Assembly (NCBI GenBank): GCA_029262005.1
Contig: JAJDAG010000182.1
Coordinates: forward strand, 1-64,000
Source of the DNA: Candidatus Zhuqueibacterota bacterium
GTDB lineage: Bacteria > Zhuqueibacterota > Zhuqueibacteria > Oceanimicrobiales > Oceanimicrobiaceae
Length of the DNA stretch: 64,000 bases
Direction of reading: 5' to 3'
Shown here in pieces: positions 5,929-50,999 of this stretch (the stretch's first letter is position 1; every line of letters begins with the position of its first letter). The notes under the pieces were generated by a model, which was not told where the DNA came from, did no database searches, and saw only the letters and a program-made list of their open reading frames with translations. A program made the position numbers and the translations under genes.

Positions 5929-6296
5929 TTTCACCTCTTTATTTTTGTCATTATTCAGGTCTGTTAAACTAGCCTTAGAGAGAGTTTTAAGCAACCGTTG
6001 AACACTATCTTTGAGGAAACAGGTACGAAATTGAAATTATTTTTCCCCGCCACCGCTTGCGAACCGTAAATCAATTAATGCCGGTATCGAGATGTTCGTC
6101 AAGCAATTTGTTTGTGTAAAGGTGGCTTCTGATTGAGTTGTTCGTTCAGAATTCGGACTGCTAAAATATAGAAAGCAATGAAGTATTGTCAAGGGATCTT
6201 TTTCTTGCTTGAATGTTTCGCATTTATTAGTATTTTCATTTTGTCTAGTATATCCATGCAAGTGAAGTGGTTGTTCACCCTGAGTTCAGTGAAACT

Positions 6297-8576
6297 ATGA
6301 ATGTGAAAAAAGTGGTTCTGATTATGAGTCCTCTCATCCTAATTTTGGTGGTAACTTTTATGCAAATATCAAATAACGACAGTAGCCCTGTGCAGTACGA
6401 TTCGCATGGTCGTCCGCTGCTTCCCACTGCTGCAGCGCTTAAGCGGCTGCCCGAAGATGGCGGCGAGCACTTCAATCGACTGGTTTTTGAAAAGAGTCCC
6501 TACCTGCTGCAACATGCCGGCAACCCTGTAGATTGGTACCCGTGGGGCGATGCTGCCTTTGAAAAGGCGCGACAGGAAGATAAGCCAATCTTTCTTTCTA
6601 TTGGTTACTCAACTTGTCACTGGTGCCATGTCATGGAGCACGAATCGTTTGAAGATTCCACGGTTGCAGCGTTGCTGAACGACGCTTTTATCTGCATCAA
6701 AGTCGATCGTGAGGAGCGCCCTGATATTGATCAGCTCTACATGTCGGTTTGCCAGGCCATGACCGGCAGTGGCGGTTGGCCGCTTACCATTTTGATGACA
6801 CCGGATAAACGGCCGTTTTTTGCCGGAACGTATTTGCCGAAAGAGACGAGTGGCCCGCGTTGGGGCTTGCTCGATTTTGTTCCACGAGTCAAGAGCGCAT
6901 GGGCCGGGGAACGCACTAAGTTGCTCGACAGCGCCGCGCGCGTTGTTGATTTTCTCAAACAGAATTCGCAACCTACTGCCGGCGGCACGCTTGATGACAA
7001 AGTGCTCAAAACTGCGTTTCAACAACTGGCATCGAGTTTTGATGCTGATTTTGGCGGATTTGGCCAATCGCCTAAATTTCCTACGCCGCACAATTTCACA
7101 TTTTTGTTGCGTTACTGGCAGCGCACCGGTGATAGCCAGGCGTTGGAAATGGTTGAGAAATCGTTGCAGCAGATGCGGCTCGGCGGTGTCTTCGATCATG
7201 TGGGTTTCGGTTTTCATCGTTATTCTACAGACCGTCTCTGGCTGCTGCCTCATTTTGAAAAAATGCTTTACGACCAGGCCACGCTCGCCATGGCTTACAC
7301 CGAAACATTTCAGGCAACTGGAAAAGAGATTTACGCCCTGGTTGCGCGCGAGATTTTTCAATATGTTTTGCGCGACATGACTTCACCGGAAGGTGGTTTT
7401 TATTCTGCAGAAGATGCGGACAGTGAAGGCGAAGAGGGCCTGTTTTATGTTTGGAAGCCTGAAGAAATAAAAGAAATTTTGGGCGATGAAGAGGGTGCTT
7501 TTTTTATCGAAATGTTCAATGTGAAAGCGGGTGGCAATTTTGCCGATCAGGCCACAGGGCATAAAACCGGAGACAGTATTTTGCATCTTCAAGGCTCGTT
7601 TGCCGAACTGGCGGCTGAAAAAAATATCCCTGAGGATGTGCTTACAACGAAGTGGGAGTCAGCGCGCAAGAAACTTTTTTCTGTGCGTGAGAAACGGATT
7701 CATCCCCTTAAAGATGACAAGGTTCTAACCGACTGGAACGGTTTGATGATCGCTGCTCTGGCCAAAGCCGCTGTTGCTTTCAATGAGCCGTCTTACACCA
7801 AAGCTGCAAAAAATGCGGCGGATTTTGTTCTCTCCCGGCTCAGAAACAACGACGGTACTTTGCTCAAACGTTACCGTGACGGTGAAGCCGCTCTGCCGGC
7901 GCATGCGGAAGATTACGCCTTTACAATCTGGGGACTCATTGAACTATACCAGGCTTCATTTGAAGTCCGATATTTGCGTGAGGCCTTGGCGCTTAACAAT
8001 GTTTTCATCAAACATTTTTGGGATGAAGAAAACGGAGGCTTTTTTTTCACCGCCGATACCAACAATGAGGAACTGCTGGTGCGCAACAAGGAAATCTACG
8101 ACGGCGCTATTCCATCCGCCAATTCCGTTGCCGCGCTGAACCTGGTTCGTCTTGCCCGCATGACTGCAAACGAGGATTTTGAGAAGAAGTCTGGTCAAAT
8201 TTTCCGGGCGTTTGCCATGCAGGTTAATCGTGCCGCAAGTGGGCACACGCAACTGATGTCGGCTGTGGATTTTGCCACGGGCCCATCGTTTGAGGTGGTT
8301 ATCGCCGGCGACCCGGGCCGTGAGGATACAAAAAACATGTTGCGTGCGCTGCATGAAAAATTCATCCCCAACAAAGTGGTTGTGTTTCGGCCGGCGAATG
8401 AAGCAGAGCCTGAAATCGTGCAGCTCGCAGCTTACACCGAACATCAACGCGCAATAAACGGGCAGGCTACGGCTTATGTTTGCCGGAATTTTGCCTGCAA
8501 AGCGCCAACAACGCGTGTTGAAGAAATGCTCGACGCACTTTCTACTTCAAAAGTTGCGCTCAAAGGCAAGGATTGA
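6297..8576 (+). CDS. DUF255 thioredoxin-domain protein (YyaL/SSP411 family)
   Basis: 759 aa from the ATG at 6297; a GTG at 6267 would add ten residues ahead of the hydrophobic N-terminus. Residues 5-24 form a signal anchor or uncleaved signal peptide. The N-terminal half is a thioredoxin-like domain with the active-site-like CHWC at residues 107-110 in the family motif [15 protein letters not shown]. The rest is an alpha/alpha-barrel resembling N-acylglucosamine epimerase/glucosidase folds. The family (human SPATA20, Bacillus YyaL) is widely conserved but its reaction is not settled; a redox or thiol-disulfide role is inferred. Its stop codon overlaps the start of the next gene, suggesting coupling to the methyltransferase. 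Confidence 0.9.
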
Positions 8577-9265: not shown

Positions 9266-9610
9266 TCAGCCCAACACGGTCTTAAATGTATCAAGGTTAA
9301 AACCGACCAGAAGTACTCTGCCAATCAAAAGCATTGGCGCTCTTAGATTGCCGGTAGCACCCAACATGTTTTGCAGTAATATTTCATCGTCGGGCCGGTC
9401 CGCAGCAAGATCAAACTGCGTGACTTTTTTGCCTTTGCCGGCATAAACAAAATCGACCTTTTGCAAAATCTGTCTGGCGTCTTTTGCTTGCAGTTTTTTG
9501 GAAGCGCTTACTTGTTCTACAACCTCAAAGTTATTCTGCGCAAGAAACTCCTGCGTTTTTTTGCAGGACGTTCAACCGGGTCTGTGGTAGTACCAATCAA
9601 TGCGTTTCAT
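9266..9610 (-). CDS. ArsC/glutaredoxin-like candidate selenoprotein (in-frame UGA as Sec13)
   Basis: Reading from the ATG at 9610 (site AAGGA upstream), translation gives MKRIDWYYHRPG, then UGA at 9574-9572, then TSCKKTQEFLAQ, and continues to a stop at 9266 (114 residues including Sec). Sequence similarity to ArsC-like glutaredoxin-fold proteins runs on both sides of the UGA. The UGA sits at the first position of the redox CxxC, giving UxxC. Relatives with Cys at this place, and ArsC-family selenoproteins, are known. A bSECIS-like hairpin follows 16 nt after the UGA. A standard gene finder would call only the C-terminal 66 residues. Possible roles are thiol-dependent reduction or a thiol peroxidase-like reaction; arsenate reduction is not shown. 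Confidence 0.82.
9539..9555 (-). promoter_or_regulatory. Putative bSECIS hairpin for the ArsC-like selenoprotein
   Basis: On the coding (minus) strand CGCAGG (9555-9550) pairs with CUUGCG (9544-9539), six base pairs with one G-U, around an AGUUU loop. The loop begins 22 nt after the UGA and has G as its second base. Both agree with the published bacterial SECIS rules (G in the first two loop positions, 16-37 nt spacing). An alternative 6-bp stem (UCCUGC/GCAGGA) upstream competes with it. Confidence 0.6.
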
Positions 9611-9977
9611 GTTTTTTCCTTTCAGTAATTATGAAGTGGCAAGTGTCAATTATCGCGCATTATTTTGAATCTTGGTTTCAAGTTTCAAGTGCGGCAATCA
9701 TGTCGCTTCGGTTCACCCTGTAATTCTGAGTAAATTGAATTTTGACGATGGTGTGGTTCTATTAGGCGAATAATAAAGCTCCGTGGTTGCAAAATTAACA
9801 AATTTTTTTCTCGTTTCCAATGCTTCATTCAGAGTGAATTATTCGAAATCAGGAACCAATCTTGTTTTGCAATGGTGCTAAGTATTATATATATTCATTT
9901 TGTCCGTTTGGACTGGGAATTGTTTTCGTTACACGATTATTTGAATGAAGGGTGCAGGCTCGAACGCAATACATTGA
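9611..9977. other. Intergenic region between divergent selenoprotein gene and lptD
   Basis: 367 bp with no supportable gene. It must contain the promoters for the minus-strand ArsC-like gene and for lptD. An AT-rich TATATAT run near 9889-9897 could be a -10 region, but no convincing -35 was found. Confidence 0.4.
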
Positions 9978-50783: not shown

Positions 50784-50999
50784 TTAAAATTGTGTAAATA
50801 TTTCTTCGTGATTTGGGAATCGTCCAAGCGCTTTTTTGGAAAAAATAAGGGTACCATCTTTAACTACTTCAAAAACGCCGCCTTGCCCTTCAATTAAAGT
50901 GACTTCAACATCCGCGTATTTTGATTCAATATCTGCCTTCAAACTGGAGGCTGTTGGGTAGTAGTTTCACATGACACAATATTCAATCGATACTTTCAA
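50784..50999 (-). CDS. SelW/Rdx-family selenoprotein (in-frame UGA as Sec11, CxxU)
   Basis: 71 residues including Sec, from a TTG at 50999 with GGAG upstream, to a TAA at 50784. Translation gives MKVSIEYCVM, UGA (50969-50967), NYYPTASSLKADIESKY and then VEVTLIEGQGGVFEV. This is the SelT/SelW/SelH (Rdx) thioredoxin-like pattern: CxxU redox motif after the first strand, a long helix, then a Gly-rich turn. Both sides of the UGA match the family in one frame, so read-through is needed. A bSECIS-like hairpin follows. Standard annotation would miss the gene entirely. It is upstream of the flavoprotein, radical SAM and arsM genes on the same strand (185-bp gap), and may supply a redox or metalloid-binding function. 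Confidence 0.85.
50935..50951 (-). promoter_or_regulatory. Putative bSECIS hairpin for the SelW-like gene
   Basis: On the minus strand GCCU (50951-50948) pairs with AGGC (50938-50935). After a C-A mismatch, C-G closes an AGUUU loop (50945-50941) that starts 21 nt after the UGA. The loop sequence and spacing are almost the same as in the ArsC-like gene. Confidence 0.6.

Follow-up and report, generated by a model that had tools for sequence, protein, structure and literature searches.

A selenoprotein gene of the ArsC-like family NF041106 and its candidate SECIS hairpin in a Candidatus Zhuqueibacterota genome

Related selenoproteins of the ArsC-like type were published between 2005 and 2008 (PMC1088965; PMC1794560; PMC2398784), and a 2026 review of prokaryotic selenoproteins includes family NF041106 as 'Arsenate reductase-like protein', with a UxxC motif and one selenocysteine (Sec) (PMC13188914). 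Here we analysed 64,000 nucleotides of DNA (the window) from a Candidatus Zhuqueibacterota genome, which carry an in-frame UGA in a gene of this type. Our analysis gives good support to the view that this is a real selenoprotein gene and a new member of an already catalogued family. We estimate a probability of about 0.95 that it encodes a stand-alone 114-residue thioredoxin-fold oxidoreductase, in which UGA codon 13 would specify Sec under the direction of a hairpin, with predicted Sec13/Cys16 redox chemistry.

Reading frame, family assignment and Sec machinery

The preliminary description had proposed, with no strand given, a start with a good ribosome site leading to HRPG-UGA-TSCKKTQEFL. 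This start is found on the minus strand, with the ATG at 9610-9608 downstream of an AAGGA motif and the terminal TGA at 9268-9266 (Table 1). The read-through product, MKRIDWYYHRPG-U-TSCKKTQEFL..., comprises 114 residues (in full, MKRIDWYYHRPGUTSCKKTQEFLAQNNFEVVEQVSASKKLQAKDARQILQKVDFVYAGKGKKVTQFDLAADRPDDEILLQNMLGATGNLRAPMLLIGRVLLVGFNLDTFKTVLG), and its redox site consists of U13 and the partner C16. Homology had been said to continue for 100 codons past the UGA; the frame extends for 101. Using NCBIfam, we found that the product matches NF041106, 'ArsC family (seleno)protein', at 123.1 bits (E 6.8e-36; curated cut-off, 85 bits) over residues 4-109, spanning the full length of the model (positions 1-107 of 107). 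When all TGA read-through frames in the window were scanned for codon usage, the only ones ranked above this frame were TGA codons directly 5' of ordinary genes. Given the NF041106 match over residues 4-109, the read-through frame is not a chance occurrence. A plus-strand reading of the same interval was ruled out, as it contains stops and lacks homology. A plasmid search with the protein returned no match.

Table 1 Features of the selenoprotein gene and of a further selenoprotein candidate in the window
Feature	Position	Strand	Remarks
ArsC-like selenoprotein gene (NF041106)	9266..9610	(-)	114 aa, Sec predicted as residue 13; terminal TGA included
In-frame UGA, codon 13	9572..9574	(-)	Predicted selenocysteine, U of UxxC
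AAGGA, ribosome-binding-site-like	9617..9621	(-)	Read from sequence, 6 nt 5' of ATG
SECIS-like hairpin	9539..9555	(-)	7 bp, loop GUU; nt 20-36 from U of UGA
SelW-like selenoprotein gene (CVMU)	50784-50999	(-)	NF041051 100.4 bits (cut-off 88), TIGR02174 61.2 (34.2), Pfam Rdx 73.9

The gene is the sole NF041106 member in the source genome (5.77 Mb, 205 contigs, 98.7% complete). Sec genes were to be looked for in the same genome, and it encodes a tRNA-Sec with anticodon UCA together with SelA (569 bits), SelB (367 bits) and SelD (411 bits), all over their cut-offs. As most genomes of the phylum contain SelB (57/82), co-occurrence with SelB is not informative. As a point against the selenoprotein reading, no SelB was found at the threshold used in two other genomes, G082 (Gemmataceae, locus L037) and G079, which is 78% complete; missing contigs or mis-binning may account for these absences.

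The gene had also been presented as a second, independent selenoprotein in the window. The SelW-like gene is indeed another, and is probably the candidate that was meant; its candidate start is TTG at 50999 or lies further upstream.

Sec/Cys exchange and the hairpin 3' of the UGA

Within the phylum, 8 of 82 genomes contain an NF041106 gene over the cut-off, each with exactly one in-frame TGA, and the TGA column is the same in all seven other full-length homologues. TGA is also found in a Gemmataceae (Planctomycetota) relative and in two gammaproteobacterial relatives, which are 43-46% identical to the protein; the nearest relative compared is ~60% identical. In a sample of 392 Planctomycetota genomes, 80 exceeded the cut-off; of the 83 rows, 72 contain a single TGA and the other 11 lack it. 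Nine of these 11 TGA-free rows were read at the DNA level and carry TGC (eight) or TGT (one) at the UGA column, in line with the expectation of a Cys codon at this position and of UGA/UGC exchange among relatives. The Sec/Cys label changes four times across a 39-member tree, and at least three of these changes are forced by well-supported branches. Substitutions 3' of the UGA follow a coding pattern in which third positions change most (for example, 36/22/65 for the window versus relative L027).

In one relative of the same family (L032/L036, G023:C264:899-1206), the match is divided over two frames, probably because the frame shifts, or the assembly is faulty, past roughly codon 75. Genome G129 holds two NF041106 copies (G129:C5:56898-57212 and G129:C12:140623-140940), only one of which contains an in-frame TGA. 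Finally, two genomes of the same class, G081 and G080, carry another ArsC/Spx-type gene (L033 and L034, match 1501-1806) whose redox site (UDTC) has an in-frame TGA with a similar hairpin, AGTTT, 3' of it. This gene scores 78.9 bits against TIGR01617 (cut-off 75.05) and only 46 against NF041106, and therefore represents a separate Sec-containing branch.

The hairpin in the window lies inside the coding sequence, ~17 nt 3' of the UGA. In an alignment of 12 sequences, 95% of cells are paired and two-sided changes occur at four of the seven pairs, while the paired share drops to 30-67% in slid controls. GTT is present at nt 27-29 in 26/31 Sec forms versus 1/9 Cys forms, in which the hairpin is lost. 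Median local folding energy is -8.5 kcal/mol for Sec and -3.6 kcal/mol for Cys forms (p=6e-6, an optimistic value because related sequences were counted). Five Planctomycetota Sec forms (L053, L061, L062, L063 and L069) lack a GUU hairpin in this register. The same region encodes the conserved TQEFLA, so that protein coding explains part of its conservation, but neither the two-sided changes nor the Sec/Cys contrast. An Rfam scan of the window gave no match, a result that says nothing on bacterial SECIS elements, as SECIS_1 (RF00031) was silent in all control genomes too. Covarying, found in most Sec genes and lost in Cys genes, with an apical-loop G present, the hairpin looks as would be expected of a bacterial SECIS. 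It provides evidence beyond that in the preliminary description, whose observation is confirmed and whose interpretation is supported.

These data also bear on whether the UGA simply marks a broken redoxin gene, in which a Cys codon was mutated or misread during sequencing or assembly. TGA is a single base away from TGC and TGT, and Cys forms do exist; nevertheless, dozens of independent genomes carry TGA in the same column, substitutions 3' of it are of the coding type, the hairpin is kept with TGA and lost with Cys, and the Sec machinery is present in the genome. A pseudogene or sequence error is in practice refuted by conservation and retains a probability close to nil.

Predicted fold, chemistry and function

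A structure model, built on three sequences, adopts a thioredoxin-like fold (pLDDT 85.6). The nearest solved folds are those of Spx, ArsC-like proteins and glutaredoxins, with VIA-align Z scores below 8 that place the resemblance at the fold level only; no Foldseek hit reached E <= 0.001, the best being Spx at 1.2e-3. Twelve positions are invariant in the 39 members: W6, Y8, R10, U/C13, C16, G84, G87, L89, R90, P92, G97 and G103.

Two functional assignments compete with that of a UxxC oxidoreductase. If the selenoprotein were a true ArsC-type arsenate reductase in which Sec replaces the catalytic Cys, the presence of solved arsenate reductases among the fold matches and a Pfam ArsC (PF03960) score of 25.9, barely above the cut-off of 24, would be accounted for. 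However, TIGR00014 arsC (cut-off 106) gave no match row in the NCBIfam search even at E up to 10, UxxC contains a second cysteine, and the residue preceding the conserved cis-Pro is Ala or Ser in all 39 members, a position occupied by Arg in Spx (LRRP). Classical ArsC holds arsenate by means of Arg residues. We consider arsenate reduction of the ArsC type highly unlikely. A redox-sensing, RNA-polymerase-binding regulator of the Spx type is suggested by the nearest solved relative, which is Spx both by sequence (27.5 bits) and by fold, and by the (U/C)TSC redox switch common to the two proteins. Against this, the alignment with Spx shows a four-residue gap exactly at TEDG, the loop carrying Gly-52, which contacts the RNA polymerase alpha subunit, and Spx and related models, although the next NCBIfam matches, fall far below their own cut-offs (Spx, 33 versus 123). 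An Spx-like role is accordingly very improbable indeed.

The deleted Gly-52 loop and the Ala/Ser before the cis-Pro lead us to expect a UxxC oxidoreductase; judged by these features, neither a role as an Spx regulator nor one as a classical arsenate reductase is likely. We infer that the UGA is decoded as Sec in the source organism, which would involve SelB and tRNA-Sec acting at codon 13 as directed by the intragenic hairpin. The UxxC motif and the fold suggest that Sec13 would then serve as the attacking selenolate and Cys16 would resolve the selenenylsulfide, so that the protein could reduce or exchange either a disulfide or some small oxidised molecule, drawing electrons from a thioredoxin- or glutathione-type donor. 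That NF041106 is a dedicated selenoredoxin with its own substrate, neither arsenate nor RNA polymerase, stands in our judgement at even odds.

Neighbouring genes (~1.5 kb flanks) are not conserved beyond groups of close relatives, and gene order therefore offers no hint of function. A DUF255/DsbH thioredoxin-like protein is encoded near the selenoprotein gene at 6267-8576 (+) (Pfam Thioredox_DsbH, 250 bits), in a neighbourhood not conserved in relatives.

Comparison with described families

The gene adds a well-documented member to a catalogued, functionally uncharacterised selenoprotein family. A standard gene caller using table 11 would truncate it at codon 13 or overlook it. Close Sec/Cys relatives, such as L062 (Sec) and L060 (Cys), sisters on the 39-member tree, together with a hairpin kept or lost in step, offer a natural experiment on the gain and loss of Sec. 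Should NF041106 prove to be a dedicated selenoredoxin, the name ArsC would be misleading and the family would serve an unknown redox pathway.

Among known systems, NF041106 (ArsC_rel_Se_1) corresponds in score, full-length coverage and a UxxC motif with a single Sec in first position, and nothing notable differs. Arsenate reductase 2 (cd03032), from the Global Ocean Sampling selenoproteome (PMC2398784), is another UxxC selenoprotein resembling ArsC/Spx, and could belong to this subfamily or to a different one. ArsC (TIGR00014), the glutaredoxin-dependent arsenate reductase, resembles the protein in overall fold (Z 7.7 for both 3f0i and 3rdw), but has a single catalytic Cys where the protein has UxxC, and the Arg patterns of the two differ. 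Spx (PDB 1z3e, 6ghb and 7f75) has in common with it the thioredoxin-like fold, a CTSC redox motif and LRxP before the last strands; in addition to the Gly-52 loop deletion, the ArsC-like protein has Ala for the second Arg of LRRP and is without the C-terminal extension of Spx.
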